A stretch of 34,580 nt of DNA, taken from contig CALWRS010000004.1 of assembly GCA_944384025.1 (NCBI GenBank), forward strand, positions 1 through 34,580. Reading direction: 5' to 3'. This DNA comes from an uncultured Lachnospiraceae bacterium. Its GTDB lineage: Bacteria > Bacillota > Clostridia > Lachnospirales > Lachnospiraceae. The notes beneath the pieces were generated by a model, which was given only the letters and a program-made list of their open reading frames with translations, was not told where the DNA came from and searched no databases. Shown piece by piece: positions 4,060 through 26,388 of this stretch. How positions within the stretch are numbered: the first letter of the stretch is position 1; the number at the start of each line of letters is the position of its first letter. The position numbers and the translations under genes were made by a program.

Positions 4060-5718
4060 TTAACGGATTTCAGAAAGCGTTCCGTATAAATCGAGGTTGC
4101 CGTACCCCCACTGCGGATTTGGGAACCTCCGGTTTTCCTCTCTTCTCGCTCCGTTAATGAAAAACGACTTTATCTGCGTGCCGTTTAGAAACGGACGGTT
4201 TCCGCGAACAATTCCCCACTCCATAAATAAGATTGCCGCGCCTGCCGCACAGGCGGCCGCACTGGACGTTCCCGTACGAAAGACATACTCCTGCGTATCG
4301 CTAAGAATCCCCGGAATTTCCGCGCCCGGCGCAACCAAATCCGGCTTTACAACCCCAGTTCGTGTAAACCCTCTTCCGCTTTCCGGTAAAACGCCTTCCG
4401 TCAAGTCGTCGTACGCGCCAAAAGTCATTGCCAAATTTGCGTTTCCAGGCTCCGTTACCGTAACATCCGGCTCCGGGCGAAGAAAGTATGCCTCGCCGCG
4501 TAAAAACTGCCGTACGGGGAGCCAGATATGAAACTGCGACTGTACGGACAATAACCGCTCCGGATAAACAAAAAGCGTCCAGATTCCGTCCGTCAGTCCC
4601 TCAAACTTTAATAAAATTACTGCCTCTCCGCTTCGCCGCTCCACCGTCTGGTACCCAACTGTAACGGTTGTGCCCTCTAAAAGAAAGCTTCTTGTCAGCG
4701 TTCCTTCGCTCACCGGAGGAATGCGTCCAAGCCTTCCGCCGCCCGGCGAAAGAAGATCAATGGAATAAAGATCTCCCACGTTTCCCCATAGCTCTGCCGT
4801 TAGCCCTAAGGCGCCGCGAACGGTAAACTGCACTTCTTCTGCCTCGCTGTATTCTCCTGCCTGCCGCATACGGCTCTCGTAGTGGTGTGCCGCGTTTGCC
4901 TCGTTGCCGGCCGCAATAACGACTGCCGTGCTTCTTTGGCGGCTTAAGCGATCCAAATACGCCTGAAAAAGCCCCTCCCCTGTATGCGGGCCGCTGTTGG
5001 TTTCCAGGGCAAGCAAAAGAACAAGCGGCAGATTTTTTTGCTGCGCCAGCCTTACAAGGTACGCAATCCCAAGAAGAACGTCCGTTTCGCTGTAGCAGGG
5101 CGCATCCGTGTCAATGCGCCAATACGCCTTCAAATCTTCCGGCGCCTGCCTTAAGCGAACAGCGGCGATTTTGCATTCCGGCGCCACGCCGCGGTACGCT
5201 CCGTTTGCATTACCGGCCGCAACCGACGCCAAATACGTCCCGTGCCCAATCGAGTCGCCTGTCTTTGCGCTCCCATCCTCTAGCTCTTCCTGTTCATACG
5301 CTCTGCCAAAGGGAACGCCGGATAACGTCTCCTCTTCGCCTTGTGCCTCCTCCGTCTGATCCCAGATCCCGATAATCCGCGAACTTCCGTCACGATTTTG
5401 GAAGATCTCCTGTCTGTAATCAATTCCCGTATCTACAATCCCGAGAAGTACTCCCTGCCCGTACAAGTCAAAGCCGGGCAGGCTCTCCACCGCCAGCACC
5501 CCCATTTCACTTAAGTGCCCTATATCCGCAAGCCCTAAGCATTTAGGTACCGAACTGTAGGGCAGGTTTTCTCCTGCAAGCTCGTAAGTATTCTCGTCGC
5601 AGTAAACAACGACGGCAAGCTGGTCGCCGACTTGAAAAATATCGCTTGGAGGCGCAATACTCTCCGCCAGCGCAAGGTATTCGGGATACTGTACTAAAAA
5701 AGAAAGACAGCGGTTCAT
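4060..5718 (-). CDS. S8 family subtilisin-like serine protease (clostridial Csp type)
   Basis: Predicted subtilisin-family endopeptidase of 552 residues. The catalytic triad appears intact: D96 in GIVDTGID, H159 in SIGHGTYLAS, and S485 in TGTSSAAACAAG; the oxyanion asparagine is in VVIAAGNEA. There is no signal peptide or membrane segment, so it is probably cytoplasmic or packaged. A jelly-roll-like insertion between the N and S motifs (about residues 290-420) and the overall length resemble the CspA/B/C proteins that act in clostridial spore germination, but here no pseudoprotease partner is adjacent and the N-terminal prodomain is short. The gene stands alone between the aminotransferase promoter and the intron remnant. 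ATG at 5718 has a modest AGAGGG site. The S8 assignment is firm; a germination role is speculative. Confidence 0.9.
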   Translation of the reverse strand: MNRCLSFLVQYPEYLALAESIAPPSDIFQVGDQLAVVVYCDENTYELAGENLPYSSVPKCLGLADIGHLSEMGVLAVESLPGFDLYGQGVLLGIVDTGIDYRQEIFQNRDGSSRIIGIWDQTEEAQGEEETLSGVPFGRAYEQEELEDGSAKTGDSIGHGTYLASVAAGNANGAYRGVAPECKIAAVRLRQAPEDLKAYWRIDTDAPCYSETDVLLGIAYLVRLAQQKNLPLVLLLALETNSGPHTGEGLFQAYLDRLSRQRSTAVVIAAGNEANAAHHYESRMRQAGEYSEAEEVQFTVRGALGLTAELWGNVGDLYSIDLLSPGGGRLGRIPPVSEGTLTRSFLLEGTTVTVGYQTVERRSGEAVILLKFEGLTDGIWTLFVYPERLLSVQSQFHIWLPVRQFLRGEAYFLRPEPDVTVTEPGNANLAMTFGAYDDLTEGVLPESGRGFTRTGVVKPDLVAPGAEIPGILSDTQEYVFRTGTSSAAACAAGAAILFMEWGIVRGNRPFLNGTQIKSFFINGARREENRRFPNPQWGYGNLDLYGTLSEIR

Positions 5719-13180: not shown

Positions 13181-15856
13181 ATGCTTGAACTAAAAGACAT
13201 TACAAAAGACTACCCGGTCGGCGACGACGTCGTTCACGCGCTGCGGGGAGTTACGCTGTCTTTTCGCGAGAACGAGTTCGTATCTGTTCTCGGCCCGTCC
13301 GGCTGCGGAAAAACAACGCTTCTTAACATTATTGGCGGCCTTGATCAGTACACAAGCGGGGATCTGATCATTAATCAGCGCTCCACAAAGCAATTTAACC
13401 AGCACGACTGGGATGCGTATCGGAACCATTCGATCGGTTTTGTTTTCCAATCGTATAACCTGATCCCGCATCAAACCGTTCTTAGAAACGTAGAGCTTGC
13501 GCTTACGCTTTCGGGCGTTTCCAAAGCCGAACGAAAAAAACGCGCAATAGAAGCTCTGGAAAACGTAGGGCTTGGCGATCAACTTTACAAAAAACCCAAT
13601 CAAATGTCCGGAGGCCAGATGCAGCGCGTTGCCATTGCCAGAGCATTGGTGAACGATCCGGACATTCTGCTTGCCGACGAACCGACCGGCGCTCTAGATA
13701 CCGGAAACAGCGTCCAGATTATGGAGCTTTTGCGGGAAGTTTCCAAGAAAAAGCTTGTAATTATGGTTACGCATAACCCGGATCTTGCCGAACAGTATTC
13801 TACTCGAATTATTCGCCTGCTGGATGGCAAAATCACGGACGATACCCTTCCTTACCAGCCGGAGACGCCTACAGAGCCGGAAGTTGTCTTAAGCAAGAAA
13901 GAGGCAAAAAAACAGCATACTTCCATGTCGTTTTTCACGGCGCTCTCGCTCTCGCTTAACAACCTGATGACCAAAAAGGGACGGACGTTTTTGACTGCTT
14001 TTGCCGGAAGCATCGGCATTATCGGAATCGCTTTGATCCTCTCTTTAAGCAACGGCGTACAAGACTATATTGACCGCGTACAGGAAGAGACGCTCTCTAC
14101 GTACCCGATTACGATTGAAAGTCAGACAATCGATATGAGCGTCTTGTTAGGCGCGATGATGGGCATGTTGCCGGATGAGCAGCAGGAACATGACATGGAG
14201 AACGTCTACTCTGTCAACATTATGACGGACATGTTTAACACTCTGCTCTCCGAAGTGAAAATTAACGATCTGAAATCCTTTAAGGAATTTCTTGACGGCA
14301 GCCAGATTGCGCAAGATGCTACAACCGACATCAAATACACTTACAACATTAACCTAAACGTCTACAAAAGCGACACAAAAGACGGGATTGTTCAAGTAAA
14401 TCCGAGCACAATGCTGCAAAGCATGTGGACAGCTATGGGCATGTCCGAAGAAACCGCCGGTGAAGCTGCATCCCTCTCTTCCATGGCCGGAGGGACGAAC
14501 GCATTAAACGTCTGGACAGAGCTGTTAGACAACGATGAGCTTCTTGATTCTCAATACGAAATCGTTGCCGGAAAATGGCCAAGTGCCGCAAACGAAGTCG
14601 TTTTAATTGTTACGGAAGACAACGAAATTACCGACTATGCGCTTTATGCGCTTGGTCTAAAAAGCCAGGAAGAGCTGGAAACGCTCTTTAAAAATATGAT
14701 GGTGCCCGGCGCTTCGTTTGAGAGCAAGCAGGAAAAGTATACCTACGAAGACTTGCTGAATCTTTCCTACACGCTGGTTCTTCCTGCCGACTATTACTCT
14801 TACAACGAGCTGACGCACACCTGGGAAGATATGAGCAAAAACACGGCGTATATGAGCGAATTGCTAAGCGACCGCGACCGCTCTTTGCTGCTTGACGTTG
14901 TCGGCATTATCCGCCCAAGAGAAGACGCAGTGGCTGCTTCCGCAAACGGAACGATCGGCTATACGCACAAACTTACCGAATACGTTATCGAAGAAACCGC
15001 AAATCGGGAAATTGTAAAGCAACAGCTTGCCGCGCCGGAAACGGACGTATTTACCGGTCTTGCATTCGAAACGGGCGACTCTGGACTTACGATGGAGGAA
15101 ATGCAGGCATACATCGCAGCTCTTTCTGCGGAAGAACAAGCGCAGCTTATGCAAATGATGCAGGCGGCCGCAGGCAAGGAAGACCTTTCGGACGAAGAAA
15201 TGCTTGCGCTTTTTAATACCTACTACAAGCCCGAAGAAACGAACAACACTTACGACATGAATATCCTAAAGCTTGGATATGCAGACCTTCTGGTTCCTTA
15301 TTCCATCAGCATTTATCCAAAGGATTTTGAGTCGAAAGATCAGATTGTACAATTGATCAAGGATTACAACGAAGCCCACGAAGAGGAATCGCAAATCGAA
15401 TATACCGATTATATCGAGCTTCTGATGTCCTCTGTAAGCACGATTATTAACGCAATCACTTATATTCTGACTGCGTTTGTCGCAATTTCGCTTGTCGTAT
15501 CCTCGATTATGATTGGTATCATTACCTATATCTCCGTTTTGGAGCGGACAAAAGAAATTGGTATCTTGCGTGCGATTGGCGCATCCAAGCGCGACATAAG
15601 TCGCGTCTTTAACGCAGAGACAATGATTATTGGATTCGCCGCCGGTCTGCTTGGAATTAGCGTTACAGTGCTGCTTGACATCCCGATTAACATTGTTATC
15701 AAGCGCCTGACCGACATCTCCAACGTAGCGGCGCTGCCGGTAATCCCCGCCATTATTCTGATTATTATCAGCGTTCTTTTGACACTTATTGGCGGTCTGA
15801 TTCCTGCGAAACTTGCGGCTAAGAAGGATCCCGTTGCAGCGCTGCGAAGTGAGTAG
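13181..15856 (+). CDS. Fused ABC transporter ATPase-FtsX permease (MacB-like)
   Basis: An 891-residue single-chain half transporter. Residues 1-220 are an ATPase of the LolD/MacB class: Walker A GPSGCGKTT (38-46), signature MSGGQMQRVAIARAL (142-156), Walker B ILLADEPTGALD (162-173) and switch histidine in MVTHNPDL. A first membrane segment follows at about 266-288, then an external domain of about 470 residues rich in acidic residues, and three C-terminal membrane segments from about residue 755 on with the FtsX-family ERTKEIGILRAIGASKRDI loop. This mechanotransmission type does not pass substrate through the membrane; it usually exports peptides or lipoproteins or responds to antimicrobial peptides. 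No two-component system is adjacent. GGAGG lies 12 bases before the ATG. It ends immediately before the repeat array. Confidence 0.93.
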   Translation: MLELKDITKDYPVGDDVVHALRGVTLSFRENEFVSVLGPSGCGKTTLLNIIGGLDQYTSGDLIINQRSTKQFNQHDWDAYRNHSIGFVFQSYNLIPHQTVLRNVELALTLSGVSKAERKKRAIEALENVGLGDQLYKKPNQMSGGQMQRVAIARALVNDPDILLADEPTGALDTGNSVQIMELLREVSKKKLVIMVTHNPDLAEQYSTRIIRLLDGKITDDTLPYQPETPTEPEVVLSKKEAKKQHTSMSFFTALSLSLNNLMTKKGRTFLTAFAGSIGIIGIALILSLSNGVQDYIDRVQEETLSTYPITIESQTIDMSVLLGAMMGMLPDEQQEHDMENVYSVNIMTDMFNTLLSEVKINDLKSFKEFLDGSQIAQDATTDIKYTYNINLNVYKSDTKDGIVQVNPSTMLQSMWTAMGMSEETAGEAASLSSMAGGTNALNVWTELLDNDELLDSQYEIVAGKWPSAANEVVLIVTEDNEITDYALYALGLKSQEELETLFKNMMVPGASFESKQEKYTYEDLLNLSYTLVLPADYYSYNELTHTWEDMSKNTAYMSELLSDRDRSLLLDVVGIIRPREDAVAASANGTIGYTHKLTEYVIEETANREIVKQQLAAPETDVFTGLAFETGDSGLTMEEMQAYIAALSAEEQAQLMQMMQAAAGKEDLSDEEMLALFNTYYKPEETNNTYDMNILKLGYADLLVPYSISIYPKDFESKDQIVQLIKDYNEAHEEESQIEYTDYIELLMSSVSTIINAITYILTAFVAISLVVSSIMIGIITYISVLERTKEIGILRAIGASKRDISRVFNAETMIIGFAAGLLGISVTVLLDIPINIVIKRLTDISNVAALPVIPAIILIIISVLLTLIGGLIPAKLAAKKDPVAALRSE

Positions 15857-15965
15857 GGGAAAAAAGGCAAACCCCGCTGGGCAGGGATGGACAAAAATAG
15901 CAAACCCGCTGAGGCAATGGATGGACAAAAATAGCAAACCCGCTGAGGCAATGGACGGACAAAAA

Positions 15966-16012
15966 AGCAACCCCTGAATGTAGAGGAATACATTCAGGGG
16001 GTTGCTTTTTTT
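15966..16012 (+). terminator. Terminator hairpin copy 1 (ABC transporter 3' end)
   Basis: AGCAACCCCTGAATGTA pairs with TACATTCAGGGGGTTGCT around a GAGGAA loop, with one unpaired G. It is flanked by an A tract before and seven T after, so it can terminate transcription in both directions. It lies 110 bases after the transporter stop. Confidence 0.85.
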
Positions 16013-16130
16013 GCCTTGCTGCGGCGGGGGCTTTTGCCTACTACTGCAGGGGAGGGCTTTTGCTTTGCGACTACTGTGGCGGCGGGGTTTTTTGCCTTGC
16101 GCCTACTGCGGCAGAGGGCTTTTTCTTACT

Positions 16131-16320
16131 GCCTCGGGTGAAGTGGTAAACTAAAACTGGACACCATAAGACAATGGATGGGCAAAAAAAGCAAACCCCG
16201 CTGAGGCAATGGATGGGCAAAAAAGCATCTCCCTGCGACAATGGATGGACAAAAAGCAAACCCGCTGAGGCAATGGATGGACAAAAAAGCAACCCCTGAA
16301 TGTAGAGGAATACATTCAGG
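16131..16320 (+). repeat. Long direct repeat, copy A
   Basis: About 190 bases beginning GCCTCGGGTGAAGTGG and ending in the right arm of hairpin copy 2. I see no difference from the copy at 16416-16605 by eye. The offset between the two is 285 bases, which points to recent tandem duplication or ongoing homogenisation. Confidence 0.8.
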
Positions 16321-16333
16321 GATTGCTTTTTTT
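16288..16333 (+). terminator. Terminator hairpin copy 2
   Basis: Same hairpin as copy 1 but the right arm reads CAGGGATTGC instead of CAGGGGGTTGC, giving one C-A mismatch and losing the bulge. The T tract is kept. Confidence 0.75.
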
Positions 16334-16415
16334 GCCTTGCTGCGGCGGGGGGCTTTTGCCTTGCGCTTACTGCGACAGGTTTTTACCCCTACTGCGGCAG
16401 GGGCTTTTTCTTACT

Positions 16416-16605
16416 GCCTCGGGTGAAGTGGTAAACTAAAACTGGACACCATAAGACAATGGATGGGCAAAAAAAGCAAACCCCGCTGAGGCAATGGATG
16501 GGCAAAAAAGCATCTCCCTGCGACAATGGATGGACAAAAAGCAAACCCGCTGAGGCAATGGATGGACAAAAAAGCAACCCCTGAATGTAGAGGAATACAT
16601 TCAGG
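16416..16605 (+). repeat. Long direct repeat, copy B
   Basis: Second copy of the 190-base segment at 16131-16320. Its following T-rich part (16617-16757) is a mosaic: the left portion matches the segment after hairpin 1 and the right portion matches the segment after hairpin 2. A 57-base insertion relative to the latter makes the next interval 342 bases. Confidence 0.8.
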
Positions 16606-16619
16606 GGGTTGCTTTTTTT
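16573..16619 (+). terminator. Terminator hairpin copy 3
   Basis: Matches copy 1 in stem, bulge, loop and T tract, 285 bases after copy 2. Confidence 0.8.
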
Positions 16620-16757
16620 GCCTTGCTGCGGCGGGGGCTTTTGCCTACTACTGCAGGGGAGGGCTTTTGCTTTGCGACTACTGTGGTGGCGGGGCTTTTG
16701 CCTTGCGCTTACTGCGACAGGTTTTTACCCCTACTGCGGCAGGGGCTTTTTCTTACT

Positions 16758-16980
16758 GCCTCGGGTGAAGTGGTAAACTAAAACTGGACACCATAAGACA
16801 ATGGATGGGCAAAAAAAGCAAACCCCGCTGAGGCAATGGATGGGCAAAAAAGCAAACCCCCGCTGAGGCAATGGATGGGCAAAAAAGCATCTCCCTGCGA
16901 CAATGGATGGACAAAAAGCAAACCCCGCTGAGGCAAGGACGGGCAAAAAAAGCAAATCTCTGGGACAATTGAATAGGCAA
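16758..16980 (+). repeat. Long direct repeat, partial third copy (C)
   Basis: Begins like copies A and B (GCCTCGGGTGAAGTGG) but contains one extra 34-base A-rich unit. It diverges after about 16920 and ends in the inverted hairpin at 16984-17029 rather than in the standard one. Confidence 0.75.
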
Positions 16981-17029
16981 AAAAGCAGCCCCCTGAATGT
17001 ATTCCTCTACATTCAGGGGCTGCTTTTTT
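16979..17029 (-). terminator. Terminator hairpin copy 4, inverted (amidase 3' end)
   Basis: Read on the minus strand this is the same hairpin as copies 1-3, with loop GAGGAA and the bulged G in the same arm, so it is a reverse-complement copy. One stem pair has changed on both sides (A-T to G-C), keeping the stem paired. T tracts exist on both strands. It lies 25 bases past the amidase stop codon and suits that gene's transcript. Confidence 0.85.
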
Positions 17030-17053
17030 GCCTTTTATATACTTCTCGCGCAT

Positions 17054-17836
17054 CTACTCTGCCGGCGTTACGCTTGGCTCCGTGCTTGGCGTCGCACTCG
17101 GCTCGGCCGTAGGCGCGGGCGTGCTTGTGGGCTGTGCCACCGGCGCGCTTGTCACTTTGATTTCCTTTCCCTTTCTGGCTTGGGAAACATCTTCGCGGAA
17201 CTGCTCCCAGTTCGCTTCGTCCTGCACAAAAAAGGCAGGACAATTTACGCTTGTAATGTCGTAATGGCGAATCACGTCGTCCGTTTTCAGATCGTACTCC
17301 TCGCAGAGCATAGCTACAAGGGACACCAGCGCTTGGTACGTATCGGCAGTCATTGAGCCGTCCGCTCCGGTGTGACAATACTCAATAGATATCCCATATT
17401 CGTTATAGCGCATGGATGCGCAGGCAACTTCTTTTGTCGGAATAAGCTGATAAATCGTTCCATCCAAATCAACCAGAAAATGTACGCTCTCCGTCGTTTC
17501 TCTTGTGTCCTTTAGCGACTCGTAGTACGCGCGCTTTTCTTCCGCCGTCATATTCGGGACGCCCGTGTAGTGCAGCACAAGATTTGTTACGTTATCCAGC
17601 TCAATTCCCGGGCGGGAGTAATCGCTGACCGTCAGCAAATCTTGCTTGATTTTATAATTTCCGGCCTCGTCAAAAAGTCCGTCGTTTCCGGAGGAAACGA
17701 TTCCGGAGATTACTTTGATGATTAAAAGCAGAAGCAAAATTACGATGAGCGCAAATCCTGTCAGAATGCCGATTTTCTTCAGCTTTCTCTTCAGAATACG
17801 CCGCCTCCGCCACTGCTCTTTTGTTAAAACAGCCAT
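17054..17836 (-). CDS. Membrane-anchored N-acetylmuramoyl-L-alanine amidase (amidase_2 type)
   Basis: Peptidoglycan amidase of 260 residues. A short basic cytoplasmic start is followed by one membrane segment at about residues 22-42, then the zinc amidase domain at about 80-215. Likely zinc ligands are H89 (LVLHYTG), H191 (VIRHYDIT) and C199 (VNCPAFF); E152 in GISIEYCH fits the conserved strand. The C-terminal 35 residues are a Pro/Thr/Ser/Ala tail (repeats of the PTSTP, PSATP type) with no domain after it, perhaps a wall-spanning spacer. ATG 17836 has GGAGGGG upstream and sits 11 bases after guaB, whose transcript it should share. It is the last gene of the glnS operon. Confidence 0.9.
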   Translation of the reverse strand: MAVLTKEQWRRRRILKRKLKKIGILTGFALIVILLLLLIIKVISGIVSSGNDGLFDEAGNYKIKQDLLTVSDYSRPGIELDNVTNLVLHYTGVPNMTAEEKRAYYESLKDTRETTESVHFLVDLDGTIYQLIPTKEVACASMRYNEYGISIEYCHTGADGSMTADTYQALVSLVAMLCEEYDLKTDDVIRHYDITSVNCPAFFVQDEANWEQFREDVSQARKGKEIKVTSAPVAQPTSTPAPTAEPSATPSTEPSVTPAE

Positions 17837-17847
17837 TCGCTCCCCTC

Positions 17848-19323
<1,476 letters not shown>

Positions 19324-19930: not shown

Positions 19931-22314
<2,384 letters not shown>

Positions 22315-25350: not shown

Positions 25351-26388
25351 TTACTCATTTTTGGAGTCGTCTGCGGAATCGTATTTCTTTTGCAGATTCT
25401 CCAGTTCAATATCTCCGAAGGATTCCAGCGGCGTATTTAAAATTTTTGCCGTGTTCTCCGCCTCAATATTTTTTTGTTTCTTTTTCGCTTTCCAGAATTT
25501 AACAGCGATAACAGCAAGAACAACTACCGTTACGCAGATGATCACTACTTTGATGATTTTTGACAAAACGTTTGACGCTGTCGAGCTGGTATAATCGTCC
25601 GAGAAGCTGTCGTATTCCGTAGTAAGGATGTACATCTGAATGCCGGTCGCGTCATAAAACGCTTCCATTCCATCTTTTAACGTTGTGACTGTCGTAAAGT
25701 AATCCAGCTCATCTCGGTAAGAAGAGCTTCGAAAGCTCTGTCCGCGATAAGGCGTTACGTCATCGTCTTCCACGCGTTCCGCCGTTTTTAAAAGCGCAAG
25801 ACCAACCTGCTTTCCTACGTCGTCCTGATAATACTCGTCGTACGCGTCGTAGAAATAATCCACGTATTCGTCCATAATGTCCGCTACGTTCGTACGGTAT
25901 GCGCAGGAATAATACTCGTCGCTAGGAGAATCGCCAACAGCAATTACAAAAACCGCGCCGTAGTCGTTTTCGCCAAACTCATCTGCGCAGACGTCAATCG
26001 CATATTGCTCTACGACCTCTCCAGATACGAGATTGGACTCCCGGCTCATAAAAATGCCAATGATCGAACAAAAAAAGAGAATCGCAAAAATTAAAACGAA
26101 AATGCCGATTGCCGTACCGCAGCCGGCCGGACTTCCTGCGCCGCCGGACGTATAAACAACATTTCTTCTTGAACCGTGATGAAAATGGTGAACGACTCTT
26201 GGTCCTCTTGGTGGTCTAGGACCCCAAAAACCTCCGCCAAAGCCGCCCCCAAAGCCGCCGCTAAAACCTCCTTGGCGACCGCCGCCGCTTCTTCCGCTGC
26301 GAGACGAGCGCCCGCTGCTGCGGAAACCTCCGCCGCTTCTTCCACTGGAACGACCGCCTCCGCCGCCGCCTCTTCCTCCTCTGCCCAT
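25351..26388 (-). CDS. Gly/Arg-rich two-pass membrane protein, function unknown
   Basis: A 345-residue protein of unusual composition. Residues 1-60 are almost only Gly, Arg and Ser (GRGG, RSSGRSG and GGFGGGF repeats). A His/Arg patch (VVHHFHHGSRR) follows, then a membrane segment at about 91-113, an acidic extracellular-type domain of about 160 residues rich in Tyr and Asp, a second membrane segment at about 279-299, and a charged C-terminal tail (KFWKAKKKQK). The external part (ADEFGENDYGAVFVIAVGD) faintly recalls TPM/YgcG-type domains, often paired with Gly-rich tails, but I would not assign it. It is the last gene of the sugar transferase-clpX operon, 18 bases after its neighbour, and is followed by a terminator. 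Confidence 0.75.
   Translation of the reverse strand: MGRGGRGGGGGGRSSGRSGGGFRSSGRSSRSGRSGGGRQGGFSGGFGGGFGGGFWGPRPPRGPRVVHHFHHGSRRNVVYTSGGAGSPAGCGTAIGIFVLIFAILFFCSIIGIFMSRESNLVSGEVVEQYAIDVCADEFGENDYGAVFVIAVGDSPSDEYYSCAYRTNVADIMDEYVDYFYDAYDEYYQDDVGKQVGLALLKTAERVEDDDVTPYRGQSFRSSSYRDELDYFTTVTTLKDGMEAFYDATGIQMYILTTEYDSFSDDYTSSTASNVLSKIIKVVIICVTVVVLAVIAVKFWKAKKKQKNIEAENTAKILNTPLESFGDIELENLQKKYDSADDSKNE

Follow-up and report, generated by a model that had tools for sequence, protein, structure and literature searches.

A repeat array between convergent genes of a Lachnospiraceae bacterium, likely grown from an inherited predicted terminator

What is the repeat array of ~1.2 kb that stands between two convergent genes of an uncultured Lachnospiraceae bacterium, how did it arise and does it serve any purpose? 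The array occupies positions 15857-17030 of the window, the whole stretch of 34,580 nucleotides analysed here, and lies in a host genome of 1.92 Mb in 19 contigs. It begins a few bases past the stop codon of an ABC-transporter gene (which ends at 15856), and its last hairpin ends at ~17030, close to the end of an amidase gene. A sequence-only reading had described a non-coding array of 1.2 kb at this place, and that observation is confirmed, with slightly wider boundaries (15857 to ~17030); the interpretation that came with it is partly supported. No coding potential was found in six frames, the longest stop-to-stop stretch of the array being 111 codons, and a coding repeat was rejected because successive units of 32, 34 or 35 bp fall in different frames.

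Architecture of the array

The blocks follow one another in the order A0-H1-T1-IS-A1-H2-T2-IS-A2-H3-T3-IS-A3-H4, where A-rich units of 32-35 bp are labelled A, T-rich units T, hairpins H and the 26-bp ends of an insertion sequence IS (Table 1). The A-type unit, which had been noted as ~34 bp repeated head to tail, is present in 17 copies with 62-100% identity to the reference, and 13 of the 16 spacings between copies are 32-35 nt; three of the 17 copies sit at junctions and include the IS end. The T-type unit occurs 12 times. TRF returned periods of 31-35, 64-65 and 285 within the array, the last with a 98% match and a score of 1060, and the long composite blocks are spaced by 285 and 342 bp. 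T1, T2 and T3 differ from one another by whole units, and A3 exceeds A1 and A2 and closes with a divergent unit; some blocks have therefore gained or lost units relative to others.

Table 1 Features of the repeat array and its flanking genes (window positions)
Feature	Positions	Strand	Remarks
ABC transporter (ATPase fused to FtsX-like permease)	13181..15856	+	toward array; Pfam ABC_tran 8.2e-35, FtsX 1.9e-18
A0, three A-type units	15857..15959
H1, terminator-like hairpin	15960..16011		T-runs on both strands; inverted relative to H4
T1, T-type units	16012..16138
IS3-family terminal repeat, copy 1	16139..16164	+	26 bp
A1, A-type units	16165..16281		restart mid-unit after IS end
H2, terminator-like hairpin	16282..16332		variant right arm; inverted relative to H4
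T2, T-type units	16333..16423		shorter than T1 and T3
IS3-family terminal repeat, copy 2	16424..16449	+
A2, A-type units	16450..16566		identical to A1
H3, terminator-like hairpin	16567..16618		sequence equals H1; inverted relative to H4
T3, T-type units	16619..16765
IS3-family terminal repeat, copy 3	16766..16791	+
A3, A-type units	16792..16978		longer than A1 and A2; last unit divergent
H4, terminator-like hairpin	16979..17030		adjoins amidase end; closer than H1 to the G017 hairpin (only these two tested)
N-acetylmuramoyl-L-alanine amidase (Amidase_2)	17054..17836	-	toward array; Pfam 4.9e-23
IMP dehydrogenase	17848..19305	-	same strand as amidase, upstream; TIGR01302 3e-194

This pattern is far beyond chance, given the 17 A-type units, the four hairpins, the excess of terminator-like sites and the z-scores of the hairpins. 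With periods of 31-35 bp the head-to-tail units fall in the range of minisatellites (~10-100 bp), and the best reading of the array is a minisatellite with higher-order structure. Like bacterial minisatellites or VNTRs it is built of tandem units of 32-35 bp in blocks that differ by gain and loss of units, a variation that in this case lies between blocks of one genome's assembly, with one genome representing the species. Unlike them it is nested, the monomers being arranged in 285/342-bp blocks around a palindrome. In a TRF sample of the host genome (400 kb in 20 stretches of contigs C3, C4 and C5), 30 rows had a period of at least 9, the longest being 72, and 29 of these 30 periods were divisible by three, a pattern that coding repeats would show.

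Searched against its own genome, the array matched only itself, at five places that all lie within it. The unit pattern, allowed up to three mismatches, gave 20 hits in the genome, of which 15 are in the array and the other five carry two or three mismatches; a reversed control pattern gave nine hits, exceeding those five. BIME, REP and ERIC elements are dispersed families of intergenic palindromes. The array resembles them in its intergenic palindromes but stands at one place only, and its unit pattern outside the array is at chance level, so a dispersed family of this type was rejected, and the suggestion of a new BIME- or ERIC-like family falls with it. A CRISPR array was rejected as well, in agreement with the sequence-only reading, since the units abut head to tail and no unique spacers separate constant repeats. 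An origin from phages or plasmids was discarded too: the array had no blastn match at E 0.01 among 50,697 phage and 72,556 plasmid records, and the unit, hairpin and IS-tip patterns had no exact match in viral_contigs.

The T-type units had been described as related to the reverse complement of the A-type units. The units themselves are present; the kinship is weak. The score of A1 against reverse-complemented T1 was reached by 21 of 1000 shuffles. When A and T blocks were compared without hairpins and IS ends, three of 12 pairs gave scores reached by 4 to 10 of 400 shuffles, all three involving T1 and two of them using identical A-blocks, and the remaining nine were unremarkable (37 to 175 of 400 shuffles). 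On these comparisons a reverse-complement kinship of A- and T-type units appears plausible, if weak.

Hairpins and the state of the locus in relatives

All four hairpins combine a stable, GC-containing stem with T-runs on both strands, as expected of bidirectional terminators; they fold at -28 to -32.6 kcal/mol each, with z-scores of -6.65 to -8.73 over both strands. A consensus terminator scan recovered seven of the eight hairpin strands as long stems, the minus strand of H2 giving only a 5-pair stem. Between 15500 and 17500 there are 23 terminator-like sites, overlapping sites being counted apart, compared with 3.2 (sd 1.6) in 50 shuffles. The single units contribute less: 14 hand-picked segments fold at -1.8 to -10.7 kcal/mol, and several of them pair the T-run itself and leave none free, so few single units would be more than weak terminators. 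The locus thus shares with bidirectional intrinsic (Rho-independent) terminators the stem and the T-runs on both strands between gene ends, together with a single homologous hairpin in a relative (genome G017, below), and differs from them in having four hairpins and many weaker stem-and-T sites instead of one.

Folded as a whole, the array reaches -481.6 kcal/mol on the plus strand (-389.4, sd 8.8, in 20 shuffles) and -458.7 kcal/mol on the minus strand (-354.4, sd 9.8, when shuffled). A surplus of pairing is what inverted repeats would give in any case, and it is not taken as evidence of RNA function; Rfam 15 gave no match in the window at gathering score.

One hairpin with T tracts had been reported to recur four times. 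Four hairpins are indeed present, with the correction that the fourth is inverted relative to the other three: against the reverse complement of H4, H1 and H3 reach a score of 48 of 52 and H2 one of 43, and against H4 itself all three reach 30. H1 and H3 depart from reverse-complemented H4 in a single base pair, of which both halves have changed, so that the change is compensated, and excerpts of PMC5381666 describe compensated change in terminator stems of Bacillus cereus. In yeast, template switching is described as able to invert the spacer that separates short inverted repeats (PMC8604942, in excerpt), and template switching has been put forward as a maker of RNA hairpins (PMC8794818, in excerpt).

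The A-type units resemble one part of the hairpin. Their consensus, drawn by eye, gave a 23-column alignment to the left arm of H4 and its A-run, with a score of 15, which none of 1000 shuffles reached whichever of the two was shuffled. A polymerase that slips on entering the hairpin could leave a likeness of this kind. The left arm of H4 matched reverse-complemented T1 no better than shuffled sequence (471 of 1000 as good), and descent of the T-type units from the right arm is therefore unsupported.

The ABC, amidase and IMPDH genes are grouped in relatives too. The amidase was found in all 21 other genomes of the genus, and in 12 of these the sequence fetched reached the ABC end as well; the array is absent from all 12 ABC-amidase spacers. 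Compared with 60 relatives, the 21 congeners included, the array had no foreign match below E 0.001 (best 0.0047). By a frame walk, in which the amidase end is uncertain wherever the match ran through stop codons, the spacer measures 43-220 nt in 10 of the 12 relatives, 526 in G015 and 1137 in G017. A simple terminator scan that merges overlaps marked one place in seven of the 12, none in four and four in G017, against eight in the spacer of the window.

G017, of the same genus, is the closest relative found (82% amidase identity). Downstream of the same ABC gene it carries one hairpin homologous to H4, without the array. The local score of the two hairpins is 29, a value reached by none of 500 shuffles (mean 10.5, maximum 17), in a homology test confined to G017, the hairpins of other relatives looking different by eye. 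The inner stem CCCCTGAATGTA/TACATTCAGGGG is kept, and an added A in one arm is matched by an added T in the other. Since the G017 hairpin scores 29 with H4 and 26 with H1, H4 would be the likelier ancestral orientation, although the difference is small. Because G017 has the homologous hairpin and lacks the array, a single bidirectional terminator was probably the ancestral state and the expansion is probably lineage-specific; the comparison makes descent of the hairpins from an inherited terminator appear well supported. The same hairpin lends support to two earlier proposals, namely that the array is a nested satellite with a predicted terminator at its core, and that a putative terminator became amplified between convergent transcripts.

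The spacer of G017 is not strictly equivalent to that of the window, as an extra minus-strand ORF lies between its hairpin and the amidase (locus L026). By eye this ORF has a lipoprotein-like start. A remnant of it in the window was considered and rejected, as the two matches given by tblastn were weak (E 0.24 and 0.78) and neither lay in the array. The same G017 locus has two copies of ATCTCGCTTGCGAGAT shortly after the ABC gene. Small repeats were also seen in other genomes. In G020, another species and one of the 12 relatives above, an unrelated 18-bp tandem repeat (L042, 1263-1330; 3.8 copies, 72% match) runs from the ABC end into the spacer and is an independent small repeat at the same place, and contig C38 of G010, of the same genus, holds a 34-bp tandem repeat (L008, 1757-1859; 3.0 copies, 76% match) whose period is not a multiple of three.

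A rival reading is a selected insulator, in which extra terminators are kept against antisense read-through from the IMPDH/amidase side into the ABC gene and the reverse. The flanking genes are convergent, and the minor sites are sorted by strand with several per direction, eight of nine on the minus strand lying within A-blocks and all seven on the plus strand within T-blocks (three of these begin in the T-run of the preceding hairpin). This sorting, however, follows from the positions of the T-runs. Among relatives with the same convergent pair, 10 of 12 have the short spacers given above, and 11 of 12 show no more than one terminator-like place. Short spacers suffice in relatives, so the extra copies need not have been selected for, and we regard a selected insulator as unlikely.

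An IS3-family end inside the array

The 26-bp stretch TGAAGTGGTAAACTAAAACTGGACAC is found in three exact copies in the array (mean 0.00 in 100 shuffles). Because these copies stand at all three T-to-A junctions, the tip was probably present before the last block duplications. When the whole array was searched against 397 genomes of the family, matches beyond its own genome came from three, all limited to this tip plus or minus 1-3 bases, and 392 genomes of the order, a sample overlapping that of the family, contributed one further genome, again matching at the tip. Across the 396 other family and 391 other order genomes, two samples that overlap, no part of the array but the IS end gave a match at E 1e-4, in searches that gave at most two candidate places per genome among the matches listed and that may miss weak matches. 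In a class-wide sample of 391 genomes the tip, at up to one mismatch, was found in its own genome only, and is therefore rare in that sample.

Outside the array the tip occurs at six places in four other genomes, with the same TGAAG start and different flanks, the copy in G317 having one mismatch. There it is followed by two ORFs, the second of which matched the IS3-family transposase model NF033516 (174.1 bits, cut-off 160); no Pfam or NCBIfam family matched the first. In G417 the tip is followed by a fragment with 45% identity over 56 residues to that first ORF of G317. In 31 plasmid records the first 27-28 bases were matched weakly (E 0.01-0.1), and among the 20 plasmid matches listed one has an annotated IS3 transposase at the match. 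Both ends of that plasmid element begin with the same eight bases, TGAAGTGG. The stretch is thus recognisable as an IS3-family terminal repeat.

Only this end of the element is present in the array. The match ends after 26 bp and the A-unit then restarts mid-unit, which means that the remainder of the IS is missing. No inverted partner of the tip was found in the window at up to three mismatches, and all copies have one orientation. An IS3 transposase was not detected in the host genome with NF033516 (8 of 14 controls were detected, four above the cut-off), and a query with the L061 transposase protein gave no match there, in a search run without a control. The sequence-only reading had stated that the array is not an identifiable insertion sequence; this holds as regards the transposase and is to be qualified by the three 26-bp IS3-family terminal repeats.

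These ends suggest that the array could have arrived together with its repeats as a mobile or MITE-like element, a decayed derivative of an IS3 element. The tip in triplicate points this way, and a precedent exists in BrickBuilt of Porphyromonas gingivalis, a minisatellite inside a MITE, which according to excerpts of PMC4596501 is likewise intergenic, has an IS-like terminal repeat and has no transposase. The same excerpts describe BrickBuilt as 19 copies (four with both ends) outside the coding genes of one genome, with 23-nt repeats, whereas the array here is one locus with one kind of end that is repeated inside it. MITEs have a pair of flanking terminal inverted repeats; the array has one tip, three times, on the same strand. 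The missing inverted partner, the absence of a second copy of the array from the genome and of a detectable IS3 transposase, and the core hairpin whose homologue stands without an array in G017 all argue against this explanation, which we consider quite improbable.

Proposed origin and function

In our view the array is likely to have expanded in place from a single bidirectional intrinsic terminator that was inherited, and to act now as a redundant two-way terminator, its extra copies probably being neutral or mildly insulating. Under local growth from a terminator, replication would stall at the hairpin, and slippage would re-copy half of the stem with its flank to give the A-type units. Template switching would invert the hairpin, an IS3-family element would insert and subsequently be deleted down to its tip, and the composite block would later be duplicated in tandem. 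The expansion would in this way be driven by replication errors that the terminator's own palindrome promotes.

As for function, the array may be a redundant predicted terminator that halts the ABC transcript on one side and the amidase-side transcript on the other. The ABC transcript would meet H1 after three A-type units, followed by the T-type units, and the amidase-side transcript would meet H4 and then the A-type units read from the other strand. Judged from the predicted stems and T-runs, redundant termination is plausible, and a dedicated new function of the extra copies is less likely than neutrality or mild insulation. That the copy number or the entire array is an assembly artefact is very improbable, since, although repeats with a 98% match come from a single assembly and tandem repeats are known to cause errors in assemblies (PMC6868369, in excerpt), the blocks differ by whole units and point changes (T1/T2/T3, the longer A3, the variant arm of H2) and both flanking gene ends, of the ABC and amidase genes, are unbroken.

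The ingredients of the locus are known: bidirectional terminators, minisatellites, template-switch inversions, IS remnants and a minisatellite with IS-like ends. A higher-order array grown from a terminator was not found in the open-licence PubMed Central literature among the matches listed, and the word 'tandem' is absent from a paper on stem-loop families (PMC2267715). The array resembles an emerging satellite more than a new kind of system. Tentatively, and with considerable doubt, we raise the idea that intrinsic terminators can seed bacterial satellites, a strong palindrome between convergent genes giving rise through repeated fork slippage and template switching to a class of arrays that shelters mobile-element debris. 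If this is true, half-stems and inverted hairpins would pile up into higher-order repeats that can be recognised as terminator-born satellites. The locus presents side by side a likely start (the single terminator of a relative), possible intermediates (half-stem-like units, inverted hairpins and the IS scar) and the present state of near-identical higher-order blocks, which makes a model of the origin of bacterial satellites testable. It also serves as a warning that loci of this sort can be encountered in terminator prediction and in assembly.

Three further observations concern other parts of the window. On the minus strand, the GroEL ORF at 19931-21706 begins ~54 residues upstream of its family match, probably a matter of start-codon choice, and 4060-5718 encodes a protease akin to the clostridial germination proteins CspBA/CspC, with a score under the curated cut-offs. 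A 12-bp tandem repeat, CCCCCAAAGCCG, is present in 3.2 copies at 26222-26259 (TRF).
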